A stretch of DNA of 64,000 nt from Mesostigma viride (lineage: Eukaryota; Streptophyta; Mesostigmatophyceae; Mesostigmatales; Mesostigmataceae): positions 1,744,086-1,808,085 of the forward strand of contig RPFO01000645.1 of NCBI GenBank assembly GCA_009746045.1, in the 5' to 3' direction. Made by a program: the position numbers and the translations under genes. Shown here one piece after another: positions 11,729-44,087 of the stretch. Each line of letters begins with the position of its first letter. The stretch's first letter is position 1. Under the pieces are notes generated by a model. It was not told where the DNA came from, ran no database searches, and was given only the letters and a program-made list of their open reading frames with translations.

Positions 11729-11734
11729 CATATA

Positions 11735-14140
11735 TATTCATTGAGAATGATAGATTACGGAGGTGAGATAGGCATGCAACATAAGGAAAAACCCGATAAC
11801 TGGGAGAATAACCCGGAAGAAATTAATAGTAATCTGACACAGACATCCAAGGATCACGCCAGCGGCACAAGGTACAACTAACTAGACAGCACAAAACTAC
11901 ACGCAGCAACAGCGCTGCCGGCCCACCATGCAGGCCTGGAAGGGATCTAGACCGCATGGGTCGCGACAAAGTCGGCCCGGGTGCGGCGGAATAACACATC
12001 AGCCACGGTGCGAGTGAGGGCGAGTGACAGACGCTGCCGCCAATACGAGGACCACGTGCGGGCCGACCACGGGGCGGTCTGACCCTCGAGGTCGAGGCGG
12101 TCTTCACGGCGCTGGCAGCACTCGTGGAAAAACTCCGCTGTCTTGGGGCCCATGGCCCCGAACTCCTCAAGGACAAAGGGGATGACCCGGTGGGGCCCCA
12201 CATTGCCGTAGGAGGCAAACTTGTCGCGCTCAGCCACAGCGGCAGCAGCGCCGGCATCCACAGCCGCCCGGAGGATGTGGCGACCGGAAAGCGGCCGAGC
12301 CACGGAGACATCGATGAGCAGGTGGCAACCCTGCCCGTCGTAGTCAAGCACGGTAATGTCGGGGCGGTGGTTGGGTGAGTAGAGGGCGGCCCCATCCGCG
12401 TCCTCGCACTTAATGGTGGAGTGGGGAAAGACCGACCGAACCATGGCACACACCACCCGGAGGAGAGCGGTATGGAGATAGAGGAACCAGTTCTGGTTCT
12501 GCTGGCCACCCATGCACGCGATGTAGTGCGTCCCAGTAGTATCCAGAGCAAGCCCGCAGCTGCCGCAGGACGCACCCGCCGTGATGAGAGGTTGCGGGGC
12601 AAAGAGCTGGTGGCGGAGAGCGATGGCGTAAAGGGCCGGAACCAGCGTGAACAAAGGGCTCATGGGGAGGGCGCGCAGGAATGCGGACCCCACGCTCCCC
12701 TCAAGGGAAACGGAGTGAAGCCAAGCCTTCCCCTGATCGTTCAAGCTCGCATGCAGACCCATCCAGTCGGCACAGTGTAGTATACCCGCGTAGGTCTTTT
12801 GTTGTTTTTCATGAACGCAGGCAGGGAAGACACTAGGACTGACGACAGTAGACACGCCGGGCGTGCCCCGGGGCAGGCGACGGTGGACGGCCTGAGCGGG
12901 GCGGACGAGGTCGCAAGCCTGCTGGATCCCGAGGTAAGAATCCTGCACAGCCTGCACAAAGGGGAAGGGGGATGGGGTGACCAAGTCGGGAATGGCGCTG
13001 ACGGCGCTGGGGACCAACCGGCGGATCTCCGCCCAGGCCTGAGCAACAGAGCCAAGGAATTAAGGCGGCGGGGGCGAGGCGGGCGGCGCGGGTGAGCCCA
13101 CACCCGCCCATGCGGCAGGGGAGGGTGGCCAAGCGCATGGAGTGAGCTGGCAGGCTAGGGCCGGGGAGGAGCACCTGCAAGGCGGCCTGAATGCGCTCGT
13201 CATGGCCTTCCGCGGCAAGCCGCACCAAGTGGGGGGAGCGCCACGGAGCCAGTGAACCACCCGCGGGTGGGCGCAAAACCACAGGAGGAGCCCTTTGGTC
13301 TGGGGGTCCTTGAGGCGCGCCCAAGTCTCGAGGACATGGGTGCGCTGTTCCACGGTGGCCCGGAGCTCCTCTGCGACGTAGTCAGGGTCACCCACAGGGA
13401 CGCCTAGGCACGAGAAACCACGCGCCCGCGCCAATGCCCCCGGGATAGCCGCGGGGAAGCCAGAGCAGTCCCTTTGGGGCGAAAAGACTGCACACTTGGG
13501 GAGGGTGAGCCGAAGGTTGATGGCCGCCATGGCCACTTCAAGGGCAGCCAGGGCGGCAACCACAGCGTCGGCCGGGCCAAGGGCATGGATATCGTCCATA
13601 TAGGCGAGGAGCACGACATCCGGGTGCGCAGCGTGGACACCTTGGAGAGCCTTGTGCATGCAGCGGGGCAGACAGGTAAAAGGGGCCGAGGGGGTCACCT
13701 TGCTGGGTTCCCGTGCGGGAAGCGATGTCGGCGAACGTCCCATCCTCCATGAGGAAGGAGAGTTGAGTGGGGACCGTCGCCGTAGCAGGCTGCTGTCCAC
13801 GCAAGAAGGTCAGGGAACGCCTCGCCGACGGCCTCAAAGATGCTAGCCTTGGTGACAGCATTGAACGCATTGTGGCAATCCACCTTCAGCGCCACATGGG
13901 TCGGATGCGTCTCGAGGTAGGCCTAGCTTAACTGTGTGCACGATGATGTCGCTGCCCCCTTTGGTGGCGACACCAAGCTGGGCCGCGACGGACTCCTCAG
14001 TATCACTCCGGTTGGGGCAGAAGTAGGCGCGAAACTCGGGGGCCTTCTGGCGACAAATGACCTTACTCACCAGCTTGCGTAGGACGTCGCCGCAAGCAAT
14101 GGGACGAACGCGGCCAGCAGGCGGGGGGACGTTGGACATC
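11735..14140 (-). pseudogene. Family-1 RLE LINE, decayed copy A (5'-truncated)
   Basis: Collinear with ORF2 of the family-1 LINEs at 21.8-27.5 and 38.06-43.7 kb, from the mid-RT region to the 3' end. Its C-terminal 356-residue frame (11947-13017) retains the CCHC finger (CGSCG...THYIAC) and the RLE signature (HRPDITVLDY...LLIDVSV). Upstream the RT (LAYMDDIHALG near 13590) is scattered over several frames by indels. Against copy D these include four net +4-bp changes (near 13055, 13655, 13775 and 13930) and one -1 in a G run near 13242. The 5' truncation point (~14140) abuts the 3' end of another LINE. Inactive. Confidence 0.9.
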
Positions 14141-14149
14141 TTATGGGAT

Positions 14150-15011
14150 ATATATTATAATAATATAATTACTTATACAGCAGAGTGAAATCACTCAAAC
14201 CAAAGCAAACGCCCAGCTATAAACCTCTATACAGAGCCATGTCAAATCTCTATACTAGGATAAGACCAATGGAAACTCCTAACGGGAGGAACCTAATAGC
14301 CCTGCTGCACCGCAAAATCAGCCCGCGTACGGCGGAGCATGATGTCAGCCATGGCCCGAGTCAGCGCCACCGACAAGCGCTGACGCCAATATGACGTCCA
14401 GGTCCGCGCGCGCCGACCATGAGGCCCGCTGGCCCTCCAGGTCCAGCCGGTCCTCCCGGAGCCGGCAACACTCCTTGAAGAAGGCGGAGGTCAGGGGCCC
14501 CATGGCCCCAAACTCCTCCAGGACAAAGGGCACCACACGATGGTGCCCGACGTCGCCGTAGGCCAGGAGCTTGGCCCGCTCCGCCCGGTCCGCCGTGTAA
14601 CCTGCCGTGAGGGAGGCCCCAGCCACGTGGCTAAGAGCCAAGGGCCGCGCCACCGAAACGTCGATAAGCAGATGCCGGCCACCCCCCTCAAAGTCCAGCA
14701 CCACGATGTCAGGCCGGTGGTTGGGGGAATAGAAGGCAGCGCCATCCGCATCCTCGGACCGGATGTTCGCGTGGGGGAAAACCGACCGAATCATGGCGAG
14801 CACCACCGTCAGGAGGACAGTGTGCAAATACAAATACCAATTCTGATTCTGTTGGCCCCCCATGCAGGAAAGGTAGTGAGTCCCCGTGGGATCCAGCGGC
14901 TGCCCACAGCTACCACAAGGCCGCCCGGCCGGAACAAGAGGCTGCGGGGCAAATAGCTGGTGCCGGAGCGCCACCGAGTAGTGGCTGGGAGCCAAGGCGA
15001 ATGGGGGGGCC
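14150..15011 (-). pseudogene. Family-2 RLE LINE copy B, C-terminal half
   Basis: This is the 3' part of an ORF2 nearly identical to that at 27640-28356. It has the CCHC finger (CGSCGQPLDPTGTHYLSC), the RLE motif ([12 protein letters not shown]...LLIDVSV) and the family-2 3' UTR (14150-14345). A net +4-bp change (GCGC duplicated, near 14410) shifts the last ~25 codons. The coding sequence stops dead at 15013, where the CACTA-type element begins, and resumes at 20618. Joined, the flanks match the uninterrupted sequence at 28340-28370. Confidence 0.92.
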
Positions 15012-15013
15012 AT

Positions 15014-15400
15014 CACTAGAAAAGCATATGACCGGGCGGTAACACGCCCGGTAACACGAACGAACCCGGTAACGGGGCCGGTAACATGCACGGACCCATG
15101 TTACCGGCCGGTAACAGGGTCCGTTCCGGTTACGGCCGCAGTTACCGGAACGTGCCCGGTAACGTGAACGTGGCCACGTTCGGGTTACCGGGCAATAACC
15201 AGAACAAGCCCGGTAACAAGGCCTTGTTATCGGGCCGGTTCAGGTTACCGCCCGGTAACCGGAACTAGACCACGTTCACGTTATTGCCCGGTAACAAGGC
15301 CTTGTTACCGGGCTGGTTCAGGTTACCGCCCGGTAAACGTTCAGGTTACCGGTCAGGTTATGGGGTCCGTTTACTGTACGATCCCGGTATTCGTCCCGTA
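15014..15400. repeat. Left subterminal CCGGTAAC repeat array
   Basis: Many direct and inverted copies of a 10-12-bp motif based on CCCGGTAACA/TGTTACCGGG occupy the first ~390 bp of the element. Such arrays are transposase-binding sites in known CACTA elements; that function is inferred here. Confidence 0.85.
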
Positions 15401-20138: not shown

Positions 20139-20617
20139 TAGAGTAACATGAACATGCCCGGTAACCGGCAACGTACCATGAACGTGCCCGGTAACACGCC
20201 CAGTAACACGAACATGCCCGGTAACCGGCCCGGTAACACGCACTAGCCCGGTAACATGAACATGCCCGGTAACAGGCATCGTAACATGAACGTACCCGGT
20301 AACACGCCCGGTAACACGAACATGCCCGGTAACCGGCCCGGTAACACGAACTGGCCCGGTAACATGAACATGCCCGGTAACAGGCATCGTAGCATGAACG
20401 TGCCCGGTAACACGCCCGGTAACACGAACGAACCCGGTAACCGGCCCGGTAACACGAACTGGCCCGGTAACATGAACGGACCCATGTTACCGCCCGGTAA
20501 CATGAACGGACCCTTGTTACCGTCCGGTAACATGGGTCCGTTCATGTTACCGGGCATGTTACCGGGTTCGTTCGTGTTACCGGGCGTGTTACCGCCCGGT
20601 CATCTCCTTTTCTAGTG
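20139..20617. repeat. Right subterminal CCGGTAAC repeat array
   Basis: More than twenty copies of CCCGGTAACA-type motifs, mostly direct and reversing orientation near 20490-20540. They mirror the left array of the same element. Confidence 0.85.
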
Positions 20618-21176
20618 ATGGGAAGAGCACGAAGGTACGCCGAGCCCACACTCCGCAAGGAAAGCGAGAACAGCCACGCACGTCCCTGGGCGTTGAGGTC
20701 CGCGAAAAGAGCAATCCAATCAGCCGTGTGCAGAATACCCGCGTAGGTTTTCTGGTGTTTATCGATGACGCGAGCAGGGAATGCGGCGGGAGATTGAACG
20801 GAGGCGACCGAGGGAGTGCCACGAGGGAGGTGGCGCTGTACCGCCTGAGCGGCACGGACGGGAGAACAGGCCTGCTGGATCTCAGCATAGGCCTCCTGGA
20901 TGGCAGTGACGAAGGGCAAGGGGTTGCTGGGGTCCAGGAGGTCAGGCGCTGCCGTTGCCAAAAGGGGCAGGAGCCGGCAGCTTTCCGCCCACGACTGAGC
21001 GACGGAGCCCAAAAATGCTGCTGGGGCCAGCCGGGCGGCACGAGTCAGACCACAGCCACCCATCCGTGCAGGCAGGGAGGCAATGCGAATAGCATGTGGT
21101 GGGAGGTCGGGGCCCGGGACCAGCTGCGCCAAGGCCGACTGGATGCGTTCGTCGTGGCCCTCGGCGGCCAGCCGCA
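20618..21176 (-). pseudogene. Family-2 RLE LINE copy B, middle part of ORF2
   Basis: The frame running in from 21176 matches the family-2 ORF2 downstream of the RT core (RLAAEGHDERIQSALAQL ... LRSVGSAYLRALP). It then runs into the CACTA-type element's GGTAAC repeats. It is the upstream partner of 14150-15013. At 21176 the LINE sequence ends abruptly against ATATATA-containing sequence, so this copy is 5'-truncated or cut by the fold-back elements beyond. Confidence 0.9.
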
Positions 21177-21206
21177 TATATATGAATGCGGCTTTCCCGT
21201 TAGAGT

Positions 21207-21820: not shown

Positions 21821-22077
21821 TGTTAGTTGTGGCTCCACCGCTCCAGTTTTCTAGGCTGACATGATGAACCGACGGGGGTTCCTGGATTGAGACACGTTTT
21901 TTTCTCCATGCACAGCTGAAAAAACCTGCGCCGAGGTGCGGCACCGCGGCCGCCCCGCGTTGGGGGGCTGCCGCCCCCCAAACCCCCCGCTTGGGGGGCA
22001 CGCCCCCCAAACCCCCCGCGTCCGCATCTCGCTCTCCCCCCCGCGCTTCCGGTTCCGTTGTTTTACGCACCTCCCCC

Positions 22078-23349
22078 ATGCCTCCTTCACGACGCCGCAC
22101 CTCCCGGGCGCGGGATGCGCTGCCTAGTGGCGCCCCTGCGCCGCGTCGGTCCTTACGCATCGCGGCGCACCTGCAGGAGATGGGCGACCTGGACGACGGC
22201 GGTCGTGGCGCCCCTGTGCCACTCTCGCTTGTGTGCGAGGTCTGCCACAGTGGTGAGGATGCCCCCCGTCTCCTTGTGTGTGATTCGTGCCAATGCGGCT
22301 GGCACACGCGCTGCTTGGTCCCGCCCCTCTTCCGGCTGCCTCCCCCGGGTCCTTGGGCGTGCCCTCATTGCGTGGCCCCGCCTCGGCCGTCCCTAGGCTC
22401 CCGACGCGCGGCCGTGTCGACCCCGGGATCCCATTCGGCCCGCGCCCCCTCCCGCAGCCCCTCGCTGGACCCTCTCCTGGGCCTTGCGGCCCTCGTGGAG
22501 GGTTCCACACCGTGCTCCCGCTCTCCCCGCGCCGTCACGTCCGGCCCCTCCGCGGGGTCCCCTGGCCCTGCCCCGCCTAGCTCTGGGGATCCACCTCCGG
22601 CCAGCACGGCGGTGGCCACTGACCTGCGTCCTCCTGTGCTTGAGGGGTCCCTGGCGGCTCTCCTCCCTGAGGCTGTGGGACACCCTGCGGCGACTCCTGT
22701 GGTGGGCCCCTGGTCGGCCGCGCTTGGGTCCCACGACTTCTCCGTTTGGCCCCCCACCAACATTGCGGGCGTCAGCGCGCTCCGGCACGCCACGTTCTCT
22801 TGGCTGTATTGCCCCTTGCTGTTGGACGCTGTCGGCTTGCACGCGGCGTTTCCTACGCTCCCACGGCCCCCTGAATTTAGTGCCCTTGTGGTTCGTGTCC
22901 GGCACATGCTGCAGGCAGCCTCCCCCCCTGTCCTTGCCTCCACGCTTTGGGGGTTTGTCCTCGAGGACTACCATGCCGGCGGCCGCCTGCCTTGGCACCT
23001 GCCCGCGGTGCGCCAAGAATGGCTCCTGAATCTGGACGCTCAAGTGGCGCAGGCGGTGGTGCTCTTTGCTACAGGGCTTGCCGTGCAGGCCCAGCAGGCC
23101 GCCCGTGCGACATATCTCGCTGGGGGGGCCACCGACCACGCCTTGCTCGATCGCCCTCAGCTGCACACGTTTCTTGCCTCTGCCGGGCCCGGCTCGGCCG
23201 GCCTTGTTGCGCAGGCCCACGGGCGCTTGACTACGGCGGTCACCCCAGCGCAAGCCGCCCGCCTGCGCGTTGACTTCGGGGCTCCTGTCACCGTGCACGC
23301 CGGCGACCTGGTTCTGTACGATGCGGGGGGGGGCGTGTTCTTGAGCTGA
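22078..23349 (+). CDS. LINE family-1 ORF1 protein with PHD finger
   Basis: A 423-residue frame from ATG 22078. I chose this start because copy D has the same Met, and an upstream in-frame Met (21991) lies in the repetitive 5' UTR. Residues 53-98 form a PHD finger: C53-x2-C56-x11-C68-x2-C71-x4-H76-x2-C79-x15-C95-x2-C98 with the Trp before the last pair (WACPHC). The rest is Pro/Ser/Ala-rich (100-215), then a conserved globular part (~220-420). PHD fingers bind histone H3 tails or other peptides, and PHD-bearing ORF1 proteins are known in some CR1-like LINEs. A role in chromatin targeting is inferred. The stop at 23347-23349 overlaps the open ORF2 frame. Confidence 0.88.
   Translation: MPPSRRRTSRARDALPSGAPAPRRSLRIAAHLQEMGDLDDGGRGAPVPLSLVCEVCHSGEDAPRLLVCDSCQCGWHTRCLVPPLFRLPPPGPWACPHCVAPPRPSLGSRRAAVSTPGSHSARAPSRSPSLDPLLGLAALVEGSTPCSRSPRAVTSGPSAGSPGPAPPSSGDPPPASTAVATDLRPPVLEGSLAALLPEAVGHPAATPVVGPWSAALGSHDFSVWPPTNIAGVSALRHATFSWLYCPLLLDAVGLHAAFPTLPRPPEFSALVVRVRHMLQAASPPVLASTLWGFVLEDYHAGGRLPWHLPAVRQEWLLNLDAQVAQAVVLFATGLAVQAQQAARATYLAGGATDHALLDRPQLHTFLASAGPGSAGLVAQAHGRLTTAVTPAQAARLRVDFGAPVTVHAGDLVLYDAGGGVFLS
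23328..23334 (+). promoter_or_regulatory. Candidate -1 frameshift heptamer G_GGG_GGC joining ORF1 to ORF2
   Basis: ORF1 reads GCG-GGG-GGG-GGC-GTG at 23323-23337, giving the slippery pattern X_XXY_YYZ five codons before the ORF1 stop. A -1 shift enters the ORF2 frame (CGT GTT CTT GAG CTG...), which is open through to the RING domain. ORF2 has no AUG near its start. Copy D has the same 9-G run. A stimulatory RNA structure was not assessed. Confidence 0.5.
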
Positions 23350-23363
23350 GCGCGGGTGCGGCC

Positions 23364-26300
23364 GTGCCCGCCATCTTGCACGATGTGCTCGAGCTTGCGG
23401 GCATCCCCCATGTCTGGCACCCTGCTGGTCCGCGCCGCCGTCTTCTCTCCGCCGATGAGATCGCCCGACTGCCGAGCTGGGAGCTGGGGTGGGACGCGGC
23501 GCCCGCCCACTACGGGCCGGCCCACTTGGTGGATGTCACTGCCAGCGGCCCCTCCTGCCCCATCTGCTTGGACCTGCCTCGCCCTGGTGACGGTCTCTGC
23601 CGCCTCCCTGCTTGCGGCCACGTCTTCCATCAAGCTTGCATCGCCACGAGCTTGCACACGACCTCCGCCACCTGCCCCCTTTGCCGGGCCGCGGTCCTTT
23701 CCCCCTTGCCTCCTGGCGTTCTCCCGCTGGGGCCCTCGCCCGTGTCCGTGCGCCGCCAGTCCCACGCGCCTGCCCCGACACCTGCCTCCCCTGTGCGTGG
23801 TCGTGGGTCGCGCGCCGGCTTGGCTGCCTCCTCCAGCGCCCCCCTCCCGGCCGTGGGGGCCGTCCCCGCGCCGGTCTTGTCCTCGGCTGCCACGAGCCCT
23901 GCTGACCGCCCGGCGGCCGGCCCCGCCCTGGGTTCCGCTGCAGCTGTAGTTCCTCTGGCTGAGGGTGCTCCCGACCCCTCCCCCTCTCGACCCGGGCCGG
24001 CCCAACCGGGTGGGCGCACCCCCTCAGATGGCTTCCATTATTGCCAAGTCGATGGTCCCCTTGGTGACCCGTGTGGCGCGCGCCTGCCCAACCGGAATTC
24101 GTTGCTGGTGCACATTCGGGCTTCCCACCCCCACATCACGGAGGCCGCCATGCGCGCCATGGACTGCTACCGCTGCCCGGCAGCCCATTGCCAGCGGATT
24201 TTTTCGATCCACGGGCGGTACCAGCATGAGCGGCAGTGCCGCCGCCAAACCCCCCAGAACGGCCTGCCCGGCGGCCCGGCGGCCGCACCGGCCTCCCGGT
24301 CCGGGGCGGCCCCTCGGTCGGCCCCTGCCCCTCCACCGGCATCGCAGGGTACGAGCGATCCGGGGGACCTCTCGGCAGGCTGGGCATTCCTGGCCACGCT
24401 CCCTTTTGCCGCCTGTGCGCGCAACCCTTGCATGACGCTCCCGGACGTCCCTCACCGCGCCCGGAGCTTGTTTACGCGCTGCGCCCTGCTTTCCCTGGCC
24501 CGGATGCATAGTCACCCTCTCGACGAACTCGGCCACAAGCTGTTTCTCGTCACCCCCCGGCTCCTCTTAGCGCCGTTGGAGCGGGGCGTGCGTGGCGTAC
24601 AGGGTGCGGTCATCGCTCGCTGCCGGCGGTTCCTCCTCGGGGATTGGGAAGGGCTGTGGGCGCTGCAGCCTCCGGCCTCCACCCGGGTGTCGGGGGCCGC
24701 CTCCTTTGCCCGGGTGGAAGCTGACGTCATGCGGTTGGTGAAGGTAGGTGAATTGAGCCGGGCCATGCAAAAGCTTGAACTGACCGCGTTGGCTCCCTCC
24801 ACTCCCCCGACCCTGCAGGCTTTGCGCGACCTTCACCCCGACGAACCGGCCTTTGCGGTGCCCGCCCCGGCCACCCCCCCGCCCCCGCCTATTGTCCTGG
24901 ACCTGGACATCTTCACGGCTGTGCTGAAGGATCTGCCGAACGCCTCCTCCACCGGCCCCTCAGGCTGGCGCTACGAGCACCTCTCCGTGATGGCGGGCCA
25001 TGGCGGGGCGACCGCACTCTTTGAGGCTGCCGCCGACTTGGCCGCGGGGTCCCTGGCCCCCGCGGCGCGCCCTTGGCTGGCTGGGGCACGCCTCATTGCC
25101 CTCCTGAAAGACGACGTCCCCCCGCCTGCTGGCCGCGTTCGTCCCATTGCTTGCGGCGAGGTCCTACGCAAGCTGGTGAGTAAGGTCATTTGTCGCCAAA
25201 AGGCCCCCGAGTTTCGCGCCTACTTCTGCCCCAACCGGAGTGATACTGAGGAGTCCGTCGCGGCCCAGCTTGGCGTCGCCACCAAAGGGGGCAGCGACAT
25301 CATCGTGCACACAGTTCAGGCCTACCTCGAGACGCATCCGACCCATGTGGCGCTGAAGGTGGATTGCCACAATGCGTTCAATGCTGTCACCAAGGCTAGC
25401 ATCTTTGAGGCCGTCGGCGAGGCGTTCCCTGACCTTCTTGCGTGGACAGCAGCCTGCTACGGCGAACCCACTCAACTCTCCTTCCTCATGGAGGATGGGA
25501 CGTTCGCCGACATCGCTTCCCGCACGGGAACCCAGCAAGGTGACCCCCTCGGCCCCTTTTACCTGTCTGCCCCGCTGCACAAGGCTCTCCAAGGTGTCCA
25601 CGCTGCGCACCCGGATGTCGTGCTCCTCGCCTATATGGACGATATCCATGCCCTTGGCCCGGCCGACGCTGTGGTTGCCGCCCTGGCTGCCCTTGAAGTG
25701 GCCATGGCGGCCATCAACCTTCGGCTCACCCTCCCCAAGTGTGCAGTCTTTTCGCCCCAGGGGGACTGCTCTGGCTTCCCCGCGGCTATCCCGGGGGCAT
25801 TGGCGCGGGCGCGTGGTTTCTCGTGCCTGGGCGTCCCTGTGGGTGACCCTGACTACGTCGAAGAGGAGCTCCGGGCCACCGTGGAACAGCGCACCCATGT
25901 CCTGAGACTTGGGCGCGCCTCAAGGACCCCCAGACCAAAGGGCTCCTCCTGTGGTTTTGCGCCCACCCGCGGGTGGTTCACTGGCTCCGTGGCGCTCCCC
26001 CCCACTTGGTGCGGCTTGCCGCGGAAGGCCATGACGAGCGCATTCAGGCCGCCTTGCAGGTGCTCCTCCCCGGCCCTAGCCTGCCAGCTCACTCCATGCG
26101 CTTGGCCACCCTCCCCTGCCGCATGGGCGGGTGTGGGCTCACCCGCGCCGCCCGCCTCGCCCCCGCCGCCTTCCTTGGCTCTGTTGCTCAGGCCTGGGCG
26201 GAGATCCGCCGGTTGGTCCCCAGCGCCGTCAGCGCCATTCCCGACTTGGTCACCCCATCCCCCTTCCCCTTTGTGCAGGCTGTGCAGGATTCTTACCTCG

Positions 26301-27282
26301 GGATCCAGCAGGCTTGCGACCTCGTCCGCCCCGCTCAGGCCGTCCACCGTCGCCTGCCCCGGGGCACGCCCGGCGTGTCCACTGTCGTCAGTCCTAGTGT
26401 CTTCCCTGCCTGCGTTCATGAAAAACAACAAAAGACCTACGCGGGTATACTACACTGTGCCGACTGGATGGGTCTGCATGCGAGCTTGAACGATCAGGGG
26501 AAGGCTTGGCTTCACTCCGTTTCCCTTGAGGGGAGCGTGGGGTCCGCATTCCTGCGCGCCCTCCCCATGAGCCCTTTGTTCACACTGGTTCCGGCCCTTT
26601 ACGCCATCGCTCTCCGCCACCAGCTCTTTGCCCCGCAACCTCTCATCACGGCGGGTGCGTCCTGCGGCAGCTGCGGGCTTGCTCTGGATACTACTGGGAC
26701 GCACTACATCGCGTGCATGGGTGGCCAGCAGAACCAGAACTGGTTCCTCTATCTCCATACCGCTCTCCTCCGGGTGGTGTGTGCCATGGTTCGGTCGGTC
26801 TTTCCCCACTCCACCATAAGTGCGAGGACGCGGATGGGGCCGCCCTCTACTCACCCAACCACCGCCCCGACATTACCGTGCTTGACTACGACGGGCAGGG
26901 TTGCCACCTGCTCATCGATGTCTCCGTGGCTCGGCCGCTTTCCGGTCGCCACATCCTCCGGGCGGCTGTGGATGCCGGCGCTGCTGCCGCTGTGGCTGAG
27001 CGCGACAAGTTTGCCTCCTACGGCAATGTGGGGCCCCACCGGGTCATCCCCTTTGTCCTTGAGGAGTTCGGGGCCATGGGCCCCAAGACAGCGGAGTTTT
27101 TCCACGAGTGCTGCCAGCGCCGTGAAGACCGCCTCGACCTCGAGGGTCAGACCGCCCCGTGGTCGGCCCGCACGTGGTCCTCGTATTGGCGGCAGCGTCT
27201 GTCACTCGCCCTCACTCGCACCGTGGCTGATGTGTTATTCCGCCGCACCCGGGCCGACTTTGTCGCGACCCATGCGGTCTAG
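23364..27282 (+). pseudogene. LINE family-1 ORF2: RING-H2, zinc fingers, reverse transcriptase, CCHC, RLE
   Basis: Numbered from GTG 23364. Residues 65-107 form a RING-H2 finger (C65, C68, C84, H86, H89, C92, C104, C107). Two more finger-like motifs follow (CQVDG...VHIRASH and YRCPAAHC...HERQC). The RT has VDCHNAFN, TQQGDPLGP and the catalytic YMDD at 25632-25643. The C-terminus has a CCHC knuckle (near 26661-26720) and the RLE motif HRPDITVLDY...LLIDVSV. Two single-base deletions against copy D (a T near 25903 and a T near 26817) split the frame, so this copy is inactive as read. Copy D is intact at both sites. RING domains usually act as ubiquitin E3 ligases; that activity is inferred. Confidence 0.92.
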
Positions 27283-27639
27283 ATCCTTCCAGGCCTGCAT
27301 GGTGGGCCGGCAGCGCTGTTGCTGCGTGTAGTTTTGTGATGTATAGTTAGTTGTACCTTGTGCCGCTGGCGTGATCCTTGGATGTCTGTGTCAGATTACT
27401 ATTAATTTCTTCAGGGTTATTCTCCCAGTTATCGGGTTTTTCCTTATGTTGCATGCCTATCTCACCTCCGTAATCTATCATTCTCAATGAATATATATAT
27501 ATATATTAAAAATATAATTACTTACAGCAGAGTGAAATCACTCAAACCAAAGCAAACGCCCAGCTATAAACCTATATACAGAGCCATGTCAAAGCTCTAT
27601 ACTACGATAAGACCAATGGAAACGCCTAACGGGAGGAAC

Positions 27640-30232
27640 CTAATAGCCCTGCTGCACCGCAAAATCAGCCCGCGTACGGCGGAGCATGATGTCAGCCATG
27701 GCCCGAGTCAGCGCCACCGACAAGCGCTGACGCCAATATGACGTCCAGGTCCGCGCCGACCATGGGGCCCGCTGGCCCTCCAGGTCCAGCCGGTCCTCCC
27801 GGAGCCGGCAACACTCCTTGAAGAAGGCGGAGGTCAGGGGCCCCATGGCCCCAAACTCCTCCAGGACAAAGGGCACCACACGATGGTGCCCGACGTCGCC
27901 GTAGGCCAGGAGCTTGGCCCGCTCCGCCCGGTCCGCCGTGTAACCTGCCGTGAGGGAGGCCCCAGCCACGTGGCTAAGAGCCAAGGGCCGCGCCACCGAA
28001 ACGTCAATAAGCAGATGCCGGCCACCCCCCTCAAAGTCCAGCACCACGATGTCAGGCCGGTGGTTGGGGGAATAGAAGGCAGCGCCATCCGCATCCTCGG
28101 ACCGGATGTTCGCGTGGGGGAAAACCGACCGAATCATGGCGAGCACCACCGTCAGGAGGACAGTGTGCAAATACAAATACCAATTCTGATTCTGTTGGCC
28201 CCCCATGCAGGCAAGGTAGTGAGTCCCCGTGGGATCCAGCGGCTGCCCACAGCTACCACAAGGCCGCCCGGCCGGAACAAGAGGCTGCGGGGCAAATAGC
28301 TGGTGCCGGAGCGCCACCGAGTAGTGGCTGGGAGCCAAGGCGAATGGGGGGGCCATGGGAAGAGCACGAAGGTACGCCGAGCCCACACTCCGCAAGGAAA
28401 GCGAGAACAGCCACGCACGTCCCTGGGCGTTGAGGTCCGCGAAAAGAGCAATCCAATCAGCCGTGTGCAGAATACCCGCGTAGGTTTTCTGGTGTTTATC
28501 GATGACGCGAGCAGGGAATGCGGCGGGAGATTGAACGGAGGCGACCGAGGGAGTGCCGCGAGGGAGGTGGCGCTGTACCGCCTGAGCGGCACGGACGGGA
28601 GAACAGGCCTGCTGGATCTCAGCATAGGCCTCCTGGATGGCGGTGACGAAGGGCAAAGGGCTGCTGGGGTCCAGGAGGTCAGGCGCTGCCGTTGCCAAAA
28701 GGGGCAGGAGCCGGCAGCTTTCCGCCCACGACTGAGCGACGGAGCCCAAAAATGCTGCTGGGGCCAGCCGGGCGGCACGAGTCAGACCGCAGCCACCCAT
28801 CCGTGCAGGCAGGGAGGCAATGCGAATAGCATGTGGCGGGAGGTCGGGGCCCGGGACCAGCTGCGCCAAGGCCGACTGGATGCGTTCGTCGTGGCCCTCG
28901 GCGGCCAGCCGGACCTGAGCCGGAAGAGCGCCCCGGAGCCAGTGAACGACGCGAGGGTGAGCGCAAAACCACAGAAGCAGACCCTTGGTCTGCGAATCAT
29001 GAAGGCGCGCAATCAAGGGCAGTACCTCAGTGCGTGCCTCGAGGGCGGCCCGCAGAGCATCGATGACAAACGCGGGGTCGCCAACCGGAACGCCGAGGAC
29101 ATCCAACCCATGGAGGCGCTCGTCCCGGCCCAAGAGCTGGGGCGGAAAGCCGGAGCAATCACCTTGGGGCGAGTACACCGCGCACTTGGCCAGGGTCAAC
29201 TGGAGGTTGATGTCGGCCACCGCGGTCTGCAGTGCCAGCAGAGCCGCGGTGGTGTCCGGCACAGGGCCCAGAAGGTAGATATCATCCAAGTAGGCCTGAA
29301 TAGCGACCGCCGGGTGGGCAGCATGGACCGCTTGGAGGCAACCCTGGAGGGGGGCGGCAAAGTACAGGGGTCCCAGGGGGTCCCCTTGCTGGGTGCCCGA
29401 CCGCGACAGCAGGCCGCCGCGAGTGCCGTCCTCCATGATGTGAACCAGTTGGCCGGGCTGGCCGTAGCACACGGCTGTCCAAGCGTACAAGTCCTCGAAG
29501 GACTCCATGACGGCCGCAAACATGCTGGCGCGGGACAGACTGTTGAACGCGTTGTGGCAGTCGACCTTGACGACAGCGTGGGTGGGGTGGGCCTCGAGGT
29601 AGGCCTGCACCGAATGGATGAGGATATCCGCCCCGCCTGGAGTCGTCACCCCCAGCTGGGCCGCCACCGAGGTCTCACCCGCTGCGAGGGGCGGGCAGAA
29701 AAAGGCACGGAGCTCGGGCGCCTTTTGGCGGCAGATCACTTTGCCCACGAGCTTGCGGAGCACCTCACCGCAGGCGATCGGGCGCACCTTGCCCTCAGGG
29801 GGGGGCAAGACACCCTTGAGCAGAGCGAGGAGGCGAGCGCCCGCTAACCACTCGCGCGCAGCGGGAGGAACGCGACCAGCCGCCAGGTCAATGAGGGTGT
29901 CAAAGAGAATGTCCTCGCCCCCATGCCCCACCAGGACCTCCAAGTGCTCGTAGCGCCAGCCCGACGGCCCGGTAGAGGAAGCCCGCGGGACCGCACGCAT
30001 CACCTCCAGGAAGCAGTCGCGGTCCAGCCGGAGGGGGGCCGGCAGGGGGTCCGGCACGGGCAGCTGGAATCCGGGCTCCGCAGGGTGAAGAGCCTCCAAG
30101 GCCGCCAGGGTAGCCGCATTGGCGGGGGCCAGCTTGGCCATTTCCAAGCGGGTCATGGCCCGGCTGAGCTGCCCCTCGCGGACGAGGCGGATGACGTCGG
30201 CGGCCACCCGCTCGAAGTTGACCTCCCCCGAC
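27640..30232 (-). CDS. LINE family-2 ORF2: reverse transcriptase to RLE (interrupted at its 5' side)
   Basis: A continuous ~860-codon frame. Order: linker with GQLSRAMTRLEMAKLAP, RT with VDCHNAFNSL, GTQQGDPLGPLY and the catalytic YLDD (near 29282-29293), a long middle region (HDERIQSALAQLVPGPDLPP), CCHC finger CGSCGQPLDPTGTHYLAC, and RLE nuclease [12 protein letters not shown]...[11 protein letters not shown]. It is clearly homologous to family 1 throughout but diverged, and copy B belongs to the same family. The RLE would nick the target and the RT would prime from it (target-primed reverse transcription; family knowledge). No frameshift is seen in this segment, so the element was probably intact until the copia insertion cut it at 30232/30233. 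Confidence 0.93.
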
Positions 30233-30860
30233 AGTTAACGAAACTGTGGCTGAACTGTGGTTCAGCCTGCACTGATTAATATCTACAGAGGAAGTAGTTA
30301 TATTAATCAATAGGTTTACGTTGCTGGTTATGGTTACCAGCACAGAACGCACGAGGCACGTGAGAACCGTCGCCGAAGGTGCGAGGACACAGGTGCAGGG
30401 AAAGTGGTGCTACCAAGTGGCAGCGTCCTGCTCGTTATATACTAATTGTGACGCAGTCACATCCAGATGACTGATAGGACAGATCATCTCACAATATTGC
30501 TGTCCTTCACTCTGGACCAGCAGATCTCGACTCGTTATCCATAAATAGTCACATCAGTGTCCTGTCGCACAAGTCCTGTCACTATTTGTTACGTCTAATC
30601 AATAGCATTGAATAGACCGCAGTGTCGGAGACTAAATGTCCTATCGTACACTGTGACAAGACGCCGTATGCCACGCGTCACTTGAAGAACCACCGTAGAA
30701 TCACCGAATCCAAGTAGAATGTAGTAGAACAGTATCTTGCTCATATCTCGAGCAATACTCATCAGAATGAACCCGTTTCTGGATTGTAGTAACCGGAAGT
30801 AGAATCTCTACAAGCCAAGTAGCTTAGTAGAATAATATTGCTTGCCAGGCAATATTAACT
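30233..30860 (-). repeat. 3' LTR of copia-type element (628 bp)
   Basis: Same length as, and by reading identical to, 37077-37704. Begins AGTTAACGAAACTG and ends AATATTAACT, giving a 6-bp terminal inverted repeat AGTTAA/TTAACT. Confidence 0.95.
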
Positions 30861-36306: not shown

Positions 36307-36431
36307 CTGTCGATGCCGATGCCGATGCTGAAGAAAGAATACTGCTGGGGAATTAATAAATTAATCCCTTAAGCTCTGGAACCACGAAAAAATTTTCCTG
36401 AATTAATTCTCTGTTAATTATAACAGAAAAT

Positions 36432-37028: not shown

Positions 37029-37076
37029 CAGAAATCAATGCCGTAATCAGTAGATTACGAACTCGCTTGTAATTCG

Positions 37077-37704: not shown

Positions 37705-38050
37705 CCGACAGCCGGGCCGTGCGCGGGGGCGGCACGCCAAACAGCCCCTCCCAGTCCCCCTGCAGAAAGCGTCGGCAACGGGCAATAACCGCACCCTGGA
37801 GGCCGCGCACACCACGCCCGAGAGGGGTGAGGAGCAGGCGGGGGGTCACCATGTGCAGTTTAAAGCCCAGCGGGTCGTCCGGAGCGGCGTGCATGCGCCG
37901 GAGAGAAACGATTGCACATTGCGCGAAAAGGCTACGCGCGCGGTGGGGGAGGTCGGTCAGGGTAGACGTCGGGTTGATGGCGCATGCATCCCAGGGAACC
38001 GTGTCAAGCCAACGCCAACTGGCCGAGTAGTCGGGCGGCGGGGGCTGGGA
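37705..38050 (-). pseudogene. LINE family-2 ORF2, upstream fragment beyond the copia insertion
   Basis: Minus-strand frame reading HRARSLFAQCAIVSLRRMH, VTPRLLLTPLGRGVRGLQGA and VIARCRRFLQGDWEGLFGVP, homologous to the segment between the finger motifs and the RT in family 1. It joins to 30232 across the LTR element, with the shared TSD. The frame ends at ~38050 because the LINE is 5'-truncated. Confidence 0.88.
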
Positions 38051-38275
38051 GCCGGTGGATATATATTCATTGAGAATGATAGATTACGAAGGTGAGATAG
38101 GCATGCAACATAAGGAAAAAACCGATGACTGGGAGAATAACCCTGAAGAAATTAATAGTAATCTGACACAGACATCCAAGGATCACGCCAGCGGCACAAG
38201 GTACAACTAACTATACATCACAAAACTACACGCAGCAACAGCGCTGCCGGCCCACCATGCAGGCCTGGAAGGAAT

Positions 38276-40402
38276 CTAGACCGCGTGGGTCGCGACAAAG
38301 TCGGCCCGGGTGCGGCGGAATAACACATCAGCCACGGTGCGAGTGAGGGCGAGTGACAGACGCTGCCGCCAATACGAGGACCACGTGCGGGCCGACCACG
38401 GGGCGGTCTGACCCTCGAGGTCGAGGCGGTCTTCACGGCGCTGGCAGCACTCGTGGAAAAACTCCGCTGTCTTGGGGCCCATGGCCCCGAACTCCTCAAG
38501 GACAAAGGGGATGACCCGGTGGGGCCCCACATTGCCGTAGGAGGCAAACTTGTCGCGCTCAGCCACAGCGGCAGCAGCGCCGGCATCCACAGCCGCCCGG
38601 AGGATGTGGCGACCGGAAAGCGGCCGAGCCACGGAGACATCGATGAGCAGGTGGCAACCCTGCCCGTCGTAGTCAAGCACGGTAATGTCGGGGCGGTGGT
38701 TGGGTGAGTAGAGGGCGGCCCCATCCGCGTCCTCGCACTTAATGGTGGAGTGGGGAAAGACCGACCGAACCATGGCACACACCACCCGGAGGAGAGCGGT
38801 ATGGAGATAGAGGAACCAGTTCTGGTTCTGCTGGCCACCCATGCACGCGATGTAGTGCGTCCCAGTAGTATCCAGAGCAAGCCCGCAGCTGCCGCAGGAC
38901 GCACCCGCCGTGATGAGAGGTTGCGGGGCAAAGAGCTGGTGGCGGAGAGCGATGGCGTAAAGGGCCGGAACCAGTGTGAACAAAGGGCTCATGGGGAGGG
39001 CGCGCAGGAATGCGGACCCCACGCTCCCCTCAAGGGAAACGGAGTGAAGCCAAGCCTTCCCCTGATCGTTCAAGCTCGCATGCAGACCCATCCAGTCGGC
39101 ACAGTGTAGTATACCCGCGTAGGTCTTTTGTTGTTTTTCATGAACGCAGGCAGGGAAGACACTAGGACTGACGACAGTGGACACGCCGGGCGTGCCCCGG
39201 GGCAGGCGACGGTGGACGGCCTGAGCGGGGCGGACGAGGTCGCAAGCCTGCTGGATCCCGAGGTAAGAATCCTGCACAGCCTGCACAAAGGGGAAGGGGG
39301 ATGGGGTGACCAAGTCGGGAATGGCGCTGACGGCGCTGGGGACCAACCGGCGGATCTCCGCCCAGGCCTGAGCAACAGAGCCAAGGAAGGCGGCGGGGGC
39401 GAGGCGGGCGGCGCGGGTGAGCCCACACCCGCCCATGCGGCAGGGGAGGGTGGCCAAGCGCATGGAGTGAGCTGGCAGGCTAGGGCCGGGGAGGAGCACC
39501 TGCAAGGCGGCCTGAATGCGCTCGTCATGGCCTTCCGCGGCAAGCCGCACCAAGTGGGGGGGAGCGCCACGGAGCCAGTGAACCACCCGCGGGTGGGCGC
39601 AAAACCACAGGAGGAGCCCTTTGGTCTGGGGGTCCTTGAGGCGCGCCCAAGTCTCAAGGACATGGGTGCGCTGTTCCACGGTGGCCCGGAGCTCCTCTTC
39701 GACGTAGTCAGGGTCACCCACAGGGACGCCCAGGCACGAGAAACCACGCGCCCGCGCCAAGGCCCCCGGGATAGCCGCGGGGAAGCCAGAGCAGTCCCCC
39801 TGGGGCGAAAAGACTGCACACTTGGGGAGGGTGAGCCGAAGGTTGATGGCCGCCATGGCCACTTCAAGGGCAGCCAGGGCGGCAACCACAGCGTCGGCCG
39901 GGCCAAGGGCATGGATATCGTCCATGTAGGCGAGGAGCACGACATCCGGGTGCGCAGCGTGGACACCTTGGAGAGCCTTGTGCAGCGGGGCAGACAGGTA
40001 AAAGGGGCCGAGGGGGTCACCTTGCTGGGTTCCCGTGCGGGAAGCGATGTCGGCGAACGTCCCATCCTCCATGAGGAAGGAGAGTTGAGTGGGTTCGCCG
40101 TAGCAGGCTGCTGTCCACGCAAGAAGGTCAGGGAACGCCTCGCCGACGGCCTCAAAGATGCTAGCCTTGGTGACAGCATTGAACGCATTGTGGCAATCCA
40201 CCTTCAGCGCCACATGGGTCGGATGCGTCTCGAGGTAGGCCTGAACTGTGTGCACGATGATGTCGCTGCCCCCTTTGGTGGCGACGCCAAGCTGGGCCGC
40301 GACGGACTCCTCAGTATCACTCCGGTTGGGGCAGAAGTAGGCGCGAAACTCGGGGGCCTTTTGGCGACAAATGACCTTACTCACCAGCTTGCGTAGGACT
40401 CG
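38276..40402 (-). CDS. LINE family-1 copy D ORF2, RT to RLE part
   Basis: A continuous frame (~700 codons in homologous register) covering the RT from VLRKLVSKVICRQKAP through YMDD (LLAYMDDIHALG), the conserved middle region, the CCHC knuckle CGSCGLALDTTGTHYIAC and the RLE nuclease (HRPDITVLDY...LLIDVSV), ending ...RRTRADFVATHAV. It is separated from the upstream ORF2 frame only by a missing C near 40399 (GGACTCG where copy C has GGACCTCG). Confidence 0.9.
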   Translation of the reverse strand, partial: RVLRKLVSKVICRQKAPEFRAYFCPNRSDTEESVAAQLGVATKGGSDIIVHTVQAYLETHPTHVALKVDCHNAFNAVTKASIFEAVGEAFPDLLAWTAACYGEPTQLSFLMEDGTFADIASRTGTQQGDPLGPFYLSAPLHKALQGVHAAHPDVVLLAYMDDIHALGPADAVVAALAALEVAMAAINLRLTLPKCAVFSPQGDCSGFPAAIPGALARARGFSCLGVPVGDPDYVEEELRATVEQRTHVLETWARLKDPQTKGLLLWFCAHPRVVHWLRGAPPHLVRLAAEGHDERIQAALQVLLPGPSLPAHSMRLATLPCRMGGCGLTRAARLAPAAFLGSVAQAWAEIRRLVPSAVSAIPDLVTPSPFPFVQAVQDSYLGIQQACDLVRPAQAVHRRLPRGTPGVSTVVSPSVFPACVHEKQQKTYAGILHCADWMGLHASLNDQGKAWLHSVSLEGSVGSAFLRALPMSPLFTLVPALYAIALRHQLFAPQPLITAGASCGSCGLALDTTGTHYIACMGGQQNQNWFLYLHTALLRVVCAMVRSVFPHSTIKCEDADGAALYSPNHRPDITVLDYDGQGCHLLIDVSVARPLSGRHILRAAVDAGAAAAVAERDKFASYGNVGPHRVIPFVLEEFGAMGPKTAEFFHECCQRREDRLDLEGQTAPWSARTWSSYWRQRLSLALTRTVADVLFRRTRADFVATHAV

Positions 40403-42195
40403 CCGCAAGCAATGGGACGAACGCGGCCAGCAGGCGGGGGGAGGTCGTCTTTCAGGAGGGCAATGAGGCGTGCCCCAGCCAGCCAAGGGCGCGCCGCGGG
40501 GGCCAGGGACCCCGCGGCCAAGTCGGCGGCAGCCTCAAAGAGTGCGGTCGCCCCGCCATGGCCCGCCATCACGGAGAGGTGCTCGTAGCGCCAGCCTGAG
40601 GGGCCGGTGGAGGAGGCGTTCGGCAGATCCTTCAGCACAGCCGTGAAGATGTCCAGGTCCAGGACAATAGGCGGGGGCGGGGGGGTGGCCGGGGCGGGCA
40701 CCGCAAAGGCCGGTTCGTCGGGGTGAAGGTCGCGCAAAGCCTGCAGGGTCGGGGGAGTGGAGGGAGCCAACGCGGTCAGTTCAAGCTTTTGCATGGCCCG
40801 GCTCAATTCACCTACCTTCACCAACCGCATGACGTCAGCTTCCACCCGGGCAAAGGAGGCGGCCCCCGACACCCGGGTGGAGGCCGGAGGCTGCAGCGCC
40901 CACAGCCCTTCCCAATCCCCGAGGAGGAACCGCCGGCAGCGAGCGATGACCGCACCCTGTACGCCACGCACGCCCCGCTCCAACGGCGCTAAGAGGAGCC
41001 GGGGGGTGACGAGAAACAGCTTGTGGCCGAGTTCGTCGAGAGGGTGACTATGCATCCGGGCCAGGGAAAGCAGGGCGCAGCGCGTAAACAAGCTCCGGGC
41101 GCGGTGAGGGACGTCCGGGAGCGTCATGCAAGGGTTGCGCGCACAGGCGGCAAAAGGGAGCGTGGCCAGGAATGCCCAGCCTGCCGAGAGGTCCCCCGGA
41201 TCGCTCGTACCCTGCGATGCCGGTGGAGGGGCAGGGGCCGACCGAGGGGCCGCCCCGGACCGGGAGGCCGGTGCGGCCGCCGGGCCGCCGGGCAGGCCGT
41301 TCTGGGGGGTTTGGCGGCGGCACTGCCGCTCATGCTGGTACCGCCCGTGGATCGAAAAAATCCGCTGGCAATGGGCTGCCGGGCAGCGGTAGCAGTCCAT
41401 GGCGCGCATGGCGGCCTCCGTGATGTGGGGGTGGGAAGCCCGAATGTGCACCAGCAACGAATTCCGGTTGGGCAGGCGCGCGCCACACGGGTCACCAAGG
41501 GGACCATCGACTTGGCAATAATGGAAGCCATCTGAGGGGGTGCGCCCACCCGGTTGGGCCGGCCCGGGTCGAGAGGGGGAGGGGTCGGGAGCACCCTCAG
41601 CCAGAGGAACTACAGCTGCAGCGGAACCCAGGGCGGGGCCGGCCGCCGGGCGGTCAGCAGGGCTCGTGGCAGCCGAGGACAAGACCGGCGCGGGGACGGC
41701 CCCCACGGCCGGGAGGGGGGCGCTGGAGGAGGCAGCCAAGCCGGCGCGCGACCCACGACCACGCACAGGGGAGGCAGGTGTCGGGGCAGGCGCGTGGGAC
41801 TGGCGGCGCACGGACACGGGCGAGGGCCCCAGCGGGAGAACGCCAGGAGGCAAGGGGGAAAGGACCGCGGCCCGGCAAAGGGGGCAGGTGGCGGAGGTCG
41901 TGTGCAAGCTCGTGGCGATGCAAGCTTGATGGAAGACGTGGCCGCAAGCAGGGAGGCGGCAGAGACCGTCACCAGGGCGAGGCAGGTCCAAGCAGATGGG
42001 GCAGGAGGGGCCGCTGGCAGTGACATCCACCAAGTGGGCCGGCCCGTAGTGGGCGGGCGCCGCGTCCCACCCCAGCTCCCAGCTCGGCAGTCGGGCGATC
42101 TCATCGGCGGAGAGAAGACGGCGGCGCGGACCAGCAGGGTGCCAGACATGGGGGATGCCCGCAAGCTCGAGCACATCGTGCAAGATGGCGGGCAC
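40398..42195 (-). CDS. LINE family-1 copy D ORF2, RING and zinc-finger part
   Basis: This frame equals the N-terminal ~600 residues of copy C ORF2: RING-H2 (CPICLDLPRPGDG...CGHVFHQAC...CPLC), Pro/Ala-rich linker, the two additional finger motifs, and the start of the RT region (ASSTGPSGWRYEHL, RVRPIACGE). It then goes off frame at the 1-bp deletion. As in copy C there is no AUG near the beginning, and the ORF1 G-run lies just upstream (complement of about 42225-42233). Confidence 0.9.
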
Positions 42196-42209
42196 GGCCG
42201 CACCCGCGC

Positions 42210-43481
42210 TCAGCTCAAGAACACGCCCCCCCCCGCATCGTACAGAACCAGGTCGCCGGCGTGCACGGTGACAGGAGCCCCGAAGTCAACGCGCAGGCGG
42301 GCGGCTTGCGCTGGGGTGACCGCCGTAGTCAAGCGCCCGTGGGCCTGCGCAACAAGGCCGGCCGAGCCGGGCCCGGCAGAGGCAAGAAACGTGTGCAGCT
42401 GAGGGCGATCGAGCAAGGCGTGGTCGGTGGCCCCCCCAGCGAGATATGTCGCACGGGCGGCCTGCTGGGCCTGCACGGCAAGCCCTGTAGCAAAGAGCAC
42501 CACCGCCTGCGCCACTTGAGCGTCCAGATTCAGGAGCCATTCTTGGCGCACCGCGGGCAGGTGCCAAGGCAGGCGGCCGCCGGCATGGTAGTCCTCGAGG
42601 ACAAACCCCCAAAGCGTGGAGGCAAGGACAGGGGGGGAGGCTGCCTGCAGCATGTGCCGGACACGAACCACAAGGGCACTAAATTCAGGGGGCCGTGGGA
42701 GCGTAGGAAACGCCGCGTGCAAGCCGACAGCGTCCAACAGCAAGGGGCAATACAGCCAAGAGAACGTGGCGTGCCGGAGCGCGCTGACGCCCGCAATGTT
42801 GGTGGGGGGCCAAACGGAGAAGTCGTGGGACCCAAGCGCGGCCGACCAGGGGCCCACCACAGGAGTCGCCGCAGGGTGTCCCACAGCCTCAGGGAGGAGA
42901 GCCGCCAGGGACCCCTCAAGCACAGGAGGACGCAGGTCAGTGGCCACCGCCGTGCTGGCCGGAGGTGGATCCCCAGAGCTAGGCGGGGCAGGGCCAGGGG
43001 ACCCCGCGGAGGGGCCGGACGTGACGGCGCGGGGAGAGCGGGAGCACGGTGTGGAACCCTCCACGAGGGCCGCAAGGCCCAGGAGAGGGTCCAGCGAGGG
43101 GCTGCGGGAGGGGGCGCGGGCCGAATGGGATCCCGGGGTCGACACGGCCGCGCGTCGGGAGCCTAGGGACGGCCGAGGCGGGGCCACGCAATGAGGGCAC
43201 GCCCAAGGACCCGGGGGAGGCAGCCGGAAGAGGGGCGGGACCAAGCAGCGCGTGTGCCAGCCGCATTGGCACGAATCACACACAAGGAGACGGGGGGCAT
43301 CCTCACCACTGTGGCAGACCTCGCACACAAGCGAGAGTGGCACAGGGGCGCCACGACCGCCGTCGTCCAGGTCGCCCATCTCCTGCAGGTGCGCCGCGAT
43401 GCGTAAGGACCGACGCGGCGCAGGTGCGCCGCTAGGCAGCGCATCCCGCGCCCGGGAGGTGCGTCGTCGTGAAGGAGGCAT
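42210..43481 (-). CDS. LINE family-1 copy D ORF1 protein with PHD finger
   Basis: Same 423-residue protein as 22078-23349, from the Met at 43481 (MPPSRRRTSR). The C4HC3 PHD finger residues are all conserved. No frameshift is visible. Same GC-rich 5' UTR with repeated CCCCCCAA hairpins upstream (43500-43620). Confidence 0.88.
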   Translation of the reverse strand: MPPSRRRTSRARDALPSGAPAPRRSLRIAAHLQEMGDLDDGGRGAPVPLSLVCEVCHSGEDAPRLLVCDSCQCGWHTRCLVPPLFRLPPPGPWACPHCVAPPRPSLGSRRAAVSTPGSHSARAPSRSPSLDPLLGLAALVEGSTPCSRSPRAVTSGPSAGSPGPAPPSSGDPPPASTAVATDLRPPVLEGSLAALLPEAVGHPAATPVVGPWSAALGSHDFSVWPPTNIAGVSALRHATFSWLYCPLLLDAVGLHAAFPTLPRPPEFSALVVRVRHMLQAASPPVLASTLWGFVLEDYHAGGRLPWHLPAVRQEWLLNLDAQVAQAVVLFATGLAVQAQQAARATYLAGGATDHALLDRPQLHTFLASAGPGSAGLVAQAHGRLTTAVTPAQAARLRVDFGAPVTVHAGDLVLYDAGGGVFLS

Positions 43482-44087
43482 GGGGAAGGTGCGTAAAACA
43501 ACGGAACCGGAAGCGCGGGGGGAAGAGCGAGATGCGGACGCGGGGGGTTTGGGGGGCGTGCCCCCCAAGCGGGGGGTTTGGGGGGCGGCAGCCCCCCAAC
43601 GCGGGGCGGCCGCGGTGCCGCACCTCGGCGCAGGTTTTTTCAGCTGTGCATGAAGAAAAAAACGTGTCTCAATCCAGGAACCCCCGTCGGTTCATCATGT
43701 CAGCCTAGAAAACTGGAGCGGCCCATATACATCCTAGGCTACTTCCTGCAAGGGTGGGAATGTAAGCGACCCTTGCTCTAGGTGCACCAGGGCACCTGCA
43801 CCCTCATAATCTTCACACTATGCCCAGCTAAGGGGGAGTATGTTATGTGGGGGAAGATCATCATGGCTATACAAGAGCTAGGGCATGGCTTCTCGACAGA
43901 GAGCATCTCTCTGCATGGCATAGCATGGCTAAATTCTTAATGCAACATCCATGGGGGTCCCATTATTATAGGCATGGCTTGGCTAAGTTCTGAAGGCAAC
44001 ATCCATGGGGGCCATTGTGGGCGCACATGCGCGTGGGCCACATGCTAGGCTAAGCCTTACTAATCTACACTAATGGTATATTTATTC

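Follow-up and report, generated by a model that had tools for sequence, protein, structure and literature searches.

Long interspersed nuclear elements (LINEs) that encode a restriction-like endonuclease (RLE) use N-terminal zinc fingers in target binding (PMC5678591, PMC4640811). Here an RLE LINE family of the alga Mesostigma viride is described that carries, besides such fingers, a PHD finger and a RING-H2 finger. The family, called family 1, was analysed in a stretch of 64,000 nucleotides (the window; assembly GCA_009746045.1, contig RPFO01000645.1, positions 1,744,086 to 1,808,085) and across the rest of the genome.

The family resembles R2 and its relatives in the reverse transcriptase (RT) and an RLE with a displaced catalytic lysine, in the N-terminal zinc fingers and the specific target, and probably also in the CCHC knuckle and the usual single open reading frame (ORF) (PMC5678591). 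However, R2 targets ribosomal DNA and family 1 targets (AT)n, and in family 1 a PHD finger, a domain of about 270 amino acids, and a RING stand ahead of the zinc fingers, with tandem monomers at the 5' end. The nearest functional parallel is found in NeSL and Utopia, RLE LINEs with added N-terminal modules: nematode NeSL elements and one Utopia element encode a Ulp1-like cysteine protease, which likewise acts in a ubiquitin-like pathway (PMC4640811). These elements have the protease instead of a RING. Utopia inserts into the U2 small nuclear RNA genes, whereas family 1 copies are found at ATATAT. The words RING and PHD are absent from the main text of PMC4640811. Simple-repeat targets are shared with Togen, which inserts at (TG)n, and with some HERO families, also RLE LINEs; the repeat is a different one, and neither PHD nor RING is mentioned for them in the accessible text of PMC4640811.

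PHD fingers are well described at the N-terminus of ORF1 in several types of CR1/L2 elements, some subgroups of which have a single ORF, and these descriptions come without a functional study (PMC4120745). CR1/L2 elements encode an apurinic/apyrimidinic endonuclease (APE), whereas here neither an APE nor an RNase H Pfam family was matched at E ≤ 1 in protein P0011. Dualen carries both APE and RLE. It also has an RNase H (PMC4640811), and Dualen/RandI elements share with family 1 that they are LINEs of green algae, in their case Chlamydomonas (PMC8226300). Because APE and RNase H were not found, family 1 was assigned neither to Dualen nor to CR1/L2.

An earlier note, made from the DNA sequence alone, had held that RLE LINEs normally have C2H2 fingers, but no RING, ahead of the RT. 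This agrees with PMC5678591 and PMC4640811, and C2H2/C2HC fingers are present here too. With PHD known from CR1/L2 and Ulp1 from NeSL/Utopia, no LINE with a RING was found in a literature search confined to open-access papers, without Repbase; the "ring finger" in the accessible text of PMC5678591 is part of a hand model of the RT and not a RING domain. New here are the near-identical copies, the 5' monomers of 230/231 bp, the insertion at ATATAT with duplications of 11–17 bp, and an ORF split that depends on a tract of nine guanines (G9).

PHD and RING-H2 fingers of the family 1 LINE

Copies 1 and 2 of the window belong to one RLE LINE family, whose coding content comprises a C4HC3 PHD finger, a RING-H2 finger, two fingers of the C2H2/C2HC type, the RT, a knuckle, and an RLE motif. 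The body of copy 1 occupies 21822..27498 on the plus strand and starts part-way through the last 5' monomer; the array of monomers is lost. Copy 2 lies at 38059..43721 on the minus strand, with its PHD pattern starting at 43325 and its RING pattern at 42003. The three longest inverted blocks shared by the two copies (3323, 915, and 743 nt) are 100% complementary, as expected from the near-identical inverted copies of the earlier note. The element is indeed present in the interval which that note had given (22078..27282), but its body extends beyond it on both sides. The identification as an RLE-type LINE was borne out by the RT profile match and the RLE motifs.

In copy 1 (plus strand throughout) the ORF1 frame spans 21868..23349 (493 amino acids stop to stop, first in-frame ATG at 22078) and holds the PHD finger at 22234..22371. 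The RING-H2 finger follows at 23556..23684 and the RT at 25128..25835. The earlier note had proposed Pfam searches for PHD, RING, and RVT_1, and in family 1 all three scored above the curated cut-offs: PHD (PF00628) with E = 3.2e-7 and 30.7 bits (cut-off 24), zf-RING_2 (PF13639) with E = 4.9e-10 and 40 bits (cut-off 27.3), and RVT_1 (PF00078) with E = 1e-12. Together with the ligand patterns, these matches confirm both fingers as complete. Strict regular expressions for RING-H2 and for PHD each matched twice in the six frames of the window, once per copy.

A second family (family 2) occurs in the window and elsewhere in the genome. Its proteins are 60–67% identical to those of family 1, and it keeps all family 1 domains; Pfam matches in its pieces have E-values of 3.3e-10 (PHD), 4.5e-11 (RING), and 1.2e-10 (RVT_1). 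A chance match for the two fingers was excluded by their conservation in family 2 and by shuffling of the joined ORF1 and ORF2 translation, in which the strict patterns appeared in 0 of 2000 permutations.

The 440-Mb assembly (2243 contigs) has rbcL on several contigs, and the closest PDB matches of a 309-residue piece are form I rubiscos of the green lineage, 1gk8 from Chlamydomonas among them, which would fit a green alga. The assembly was searched with the RT-RLE region of copy 2, and at least 60 places matched at 98–100% identity. Among the matches listed, an open frame of exactly 1336 amino acids was present at 21 of 60 places, and longer frames of 1359, 1666, and 1718 amino acids at three others. 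Twenty family 1 copies, mostly chosen for long frames, were fetched; they match the window body (21822–27498) at 99.5–99.9%, and 16 of them have RING, RT, and RLE in one frame. When these and the two window copies were examined, the PHD pattern was complete in all 17 copies containing the PHD core string and the RING in 19 of 19. Family 1 is best explained as a young, repeated LINE which is active or was so very recently; this forms part of the overall explanation weighed below. Outside this genome, pattern searches gave 34 and 46 matches in viral_contigs and 41 in genome_contigs, none of them confirmed, and phage records yielded no relative either; these collections are viral and prokaryotic and have little bearing on eukaryotes.

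The nearest solved PHD structures are chromatin readers. In profile searches of the PDB the PHD matched KDM5B (7.2e-10) and also KDM5A, while the family 2 PHD alone matched CHD4 (8.3e-16), WSTF, and ATXR5. The PHD appears to lack the tryptophan typical of K4me3 readers, which would point to a preference for unmodified histone H3. For the RINGs of both families the nearest solved structures are ubiquitin ligases (E3s): RNF4 for family 1 (2.8e-11), and EL5 and Arkadia for family 2. Judged from these neighbours, histone reading by the PHD and ubiquitin ligation by the RING would fit the data.

Selection on the fingers

Ratios of nonsynonymous to synonymous change (dN/dS) were calculated between the families, each from one copy pair and with synonymous sites saturated (dS about 1–3), so that only the contrast between segments counts. 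Between copies L009 (family 1) and L033 (family 2) the ratio is 0.16 for the RING, 0.16 for the RT, 0.14 for the thumb-linker, and 0.11 for the CCHC knuckle with the RLE. It is 0.21 for the zinc fingers, 0.25 for the pre-RT segment, and 0.36 and 0.40 for two linkers. Between L021 (family 1) and L037 (family 2) it is 0.13 for the PHD, 0.18 for the middle domain, 0.14 for the RING, and 0.18 for the zinc fingers, against 0.43 for the RING-ZF linker and 0.66 for the PHD-proximal linker. Three of the four linkers thus lie at 0.36–0.66. The PHD and the RING are constrained as strongly as the RT, and their low values relative to the linkers indicate that purifying selection keeps both fingers as components of the element in the two families.

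These values bear on whether the PHD and the RING are decaying passengers which the element took from host genes. Exchange of domains at the N-termini of LINEs does occur, and the PHD is found in several CR1/L2 ORF1 types (PMC4120745), but all ligands are kept in both families at 60–73% identity with dN/dS of 0.13–0.16. Decay of captured host domains was rejected on dN/dS and is considered very improbable.

Reverse transcriptase, endonuclease, and remaining domains

In a PDB profile search with the RT-RLE region, R2 proteins came out on top (E = 8.9e-4 and 1.3e-3), ahead of human L1 ORF2p (0.5). The RLE of LINEs is a C-terminal variant of PD-(D/E)XK with the catalytic lysine in KX2KY (PMC5678591). 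By motif reading, the RLE of copy 1 lies at 26860..27024 (RPD ... D, then K-X3-Y); the RPD, D, and KX3Y residues are present in both families and fit the LINE variant. A CCHC knuckle ahead of the RLE has the published spacing CX2-3CX7-8HX4C (PMC5678591), and the knuckle found here by pattern at 26663..26716, CX2CX9HX3C, is one position off.

The two further zinc fingers which the earlier note placed ahead of the RT were recovered between the RING and the RT. They are a C2H2 finger, CX9CX12HX4H, at 24042..24128 and a C2HC finger, CX4CX11HX3C, at 24165..24239. Both were read by eye and are conserved in family 2, the first with equal spacing; neither had a Pfam match in the proteins searched from either family. 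Between the PHD and the RING lies the middle domain of about 270 amino acids (residues 195–470 of L021, L021:6045-6872, minus strand), which is 58% identical between the families, with the dN/dS of 0.18 given above, and had no Pfam match.

Insertion target and 5' monomers

Targets were analysed in 21 family 1 copies with both ends, 18 fetched and 3 from the window; L009 and L017 were excluded because their monomer arrays exceed the fetched piece. In all 21 the 3' end is CAATGA followed by ATATAT. Fourteen of the 21 have ATATAT or TATATA no more than 30 nt from the 5' junction, whereas random 30-nt windows contain it in 0.9% (window) or 2.0% (3' flanks) of cases; the remaining 7 have no ATATAT within that distance. 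Direct repeats of 11–17 bp which start with ATATAT and end 0–3 bases before the 5' junction were found in six (L010, L011, L016, L021, L023, and L028). The longest match between the two flanks averages 8.0 for true pairs, against 6.4 after re-pairing of the flanks, where the highest value in 200 was 7.1.

The family 2 3' end is TTTTTAATATATAT. One family 2 copy, L030, has a 17-bp duplication starting with ATATAT (by eye), and (AT)n is present at the 5' junctions of L031 and L034 and absent from that of L036; the junction of L033, the family 2 reference, is not informative. In the window, a third family 1 copy (11730..14132, minus strand), 5'-truncated and without PHD and RING, lies within the (AT)n tail of a family 2 copy. 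The (AT)n at the 3' end of copy 1 (27491..27506, plus strand) is common to the tail of another family 2 copy on the opposite strand, and the tail of copy 2 adjoins a 5'-truncated family 2 copy. These arrangements indicate that the tails themselves are targets. The insertion target is ATATAT, and it is sequence-specific.

Upstream of the coding region, 12 of the 20 fetched copies have a tandem monomer of 230/231 bp (239 in L013) in 2–10 units, with two arrays extending beyond the fetched piece; the other 8 showed no units by the 14-base key used. Tandem units are likewise present in both family 2 copies that include a 5' part, of 173 bp in L037 (1541-2085) and of 170 bp in L038 (1495-2096, reverse complement), and the family 1 monomer has only short, weak blastn matches to L037 and L038. 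The 5' units are reminiscent of the promoter monomers of mouse L1. Close to where the PHD frame begins, both families also have a hairpin-like G/C tandem of about 30 bp (GGGGGGC...GCCCCCC), at 21953-22021 in the window and at 2125-2189 in L038 (reverse complement).

Possible mode of action and alternative explanations

As a whole, family 1 is best explained as an RLE LINE that makes one protein, docks on histone H3, and transfers ubiquitin through its RING. The probability of this explanation is put at about 0.5, and most doubt attaches to the RING step and the RING substrate. The product is probably one large protein with the order PHD, middle domain, RING-H2, C2H2/C2HC fingers, RT, CCHC knuckle, and RLE. 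Its PHD would bind the H3 tail and hold the integration complex on chromatin, and its RING, by its likeness to RNF4 and other E3 RINGs, would recruit a ubiquitin-conjugating enzyme (E2) charged with ubiquitin. The RING may modify a protein of chromatin or of host defence, or else the complex of the element itself. The RLE would nick (AT)n and the RT would copy the RNA from the nick; such target-primed reverse transcription into ATATAT microsatellites is suggested by the target duplications and the 5' truncation.

A more specific proposal, a chromatin-reading ubiquitin ligase LINE, is tentative: the PHD would sit on H3 beside (AT)n, the RING would ubiquitylate nucleosomes or a silencing factor, and integration would proceed into the opened chromatin. 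If it is true, this family is the first LINE known with its own E3. A built-in histone reader and RING would place chromatin access or counter-silencing in the element's own protein. It would also add to the Ulp1 protease of NeSL/Utopia a second way in which the N-terminus of RLE LINEs draws on ubiquitin-like pathways, opposite in sense to the first. Current RNA-templated gene-insertion tools derive from RLE LINEs.

Several observations weigh against the one-protein explanation with H3 docking and ubiquitin transfer. Many RINGs hold the E2 through a tryptophan, and in the RINGs of both families a serine takes its position (CIATSL, CIARSL). The RING could then be a zinc-built scaffold for dimerisation, RNA or DNA binding, or docking, with no ubiquitin transfer, while the PHD only docks and both replace a larger N-terminal finger set. 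The CPIC/CPLC-R features, which contact the E2, are however kept. RNF4, the best match of the family 1 RING, likewise has a serine in the alignment, so that serine at this position does not exclude E3 activity, and the RINGs of both families match E3 ligases best. RLE LINEs bind their targets through N-terminal zinc fingers (PMC5678591, PMC4640811), which would favour a scaffold, but the usual DNA-binding fingers are present here as well. Such a scaffold role is possible, if rather doubtful.

The frame structure is a further point of difficulty. The ORF2 frame of family 1 is −1 relative to ORF1, and the change falls on the G tract at 23324..23332 of copy 1. In both window copies and in 15 of the 17 fetched copies spanning the tract it is G9, with a stop and the −1 shift. 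In family 2 a −1 shift separates the PHD from the middle domain and from the RT frame in L037 and L038, and L041 is identical to L037 across 311 bases of the linker in which this shift lies. These breaks would be expected of two proteins, as in two-ORF LINEs: an ORF1 protein (PHD and middle domain) as an RNA-binding or chromatin-docking partner, and an ORF2 protein (RING, zinc fingers, RT, and RLE) as the enzyme. However, the break of family 1 precedes the RING and that of family 2 the middle domain, which in L037 and L038 is in frame with the RING; since the places differ, the boundary is not homologous. The family 1 ORF2 frame also has no ATG ahead of the RING. The tract is G10 in two fetched copies: L021, in which PHD, RING, RT, and RLE form a single frame of 1718 amino acids, and L014, in which another indel separates the PHD. 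Of 28 one-base indels among the copies, 25 fall in runs of at least 4 bases, which account for 10% of the body; slippage or errors of assembly would produce such a pattern.

The earlier note's placement of the PHD in ORF1 and the RING in ORF2 thus holds for most family 1 copies, but it rests on a homopolymer, and true separateness of the two ORFs is doubtful. There was probably one ancestral polyprotein, whose frame would now be set by ribosomal or transcriptional slippage at the homopolymer or be misread by the assembly; the break at G9 would be bridged by slippage or be partly an assembly error. The two ORFs may be real, either linked by frameshifting or yielding separate proteins, and the strictly two-protein form is possible, if rather doubtful. 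The frame of copy 1 also changes near 25903 and 26817 (its ORF2 frame as it stands, 23274..26489, has 1071 amino acids, and the true frame exits near 25903), and that of copy 2 near 40399, so that ORF2 is not open throughout in either window copy. Two questions about the expression of the element arise from the G9 tract and from the arrays of 5' monomers.

The other difficulties concern selection, the relation to R2, and structure. Besides the saturation of synonymous sites, one linker stretch of 36 codons has a dN/dS of 0.14 (L021 against L037), as low as the fingers. In the PDB profile search the RLE part alone had no R2 match, and phmmer with one protein returned weak retroviral RT matches only; the proposed relation to R2 comes from E-values of about 1e-3 and from motifs. 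Predicted structures were poor, with a mean pLDDT of 50.5 for a 276-residue middle-domain piece and 30.5 for RT-RLE.

Neighbourhood in the window

Family 2 is represented in the window by several minus-strand pieces. A 3' part with an open frame from RT to RLE (864 amino acids, P0006) lies at 27499..30233 and continues at 37706..38038 past an inserted long terminal repeat (LTR) element. Fragments are found at 14176..15061 and 20614..21188, and a degenerate one at 45983..46466; a third distinct family at the last position was considered and rejected, the fragment being degenerate family 2.

The LTR retrotransposon occupies 30233-37376 on the minus strand inside the family 2 copy. Its end repeats (30233-30532 and 37077-37376) are identical over at least 300 bp, and it is Copia-like by a weak RVT_2 match alone (E = 0.076). 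A segment of about 5.6 kb (15010-20621) separates the family 2 fragments 14176-15061 and 20614-21188. It is bounded by inverted repeats of 110 nt (93% complementary) with adjoining GTAACA-rich tandem repeats, and could represent a DNA transposon. The interval 21309-21821, which immediately precedes copy 1, contains clustered repeats of about 103–123 nt, both direct and inverted. Long pure simple repeats are found at 581-1275 (CATCCATA x 87) and at 46617-47169 (GATG x 138).

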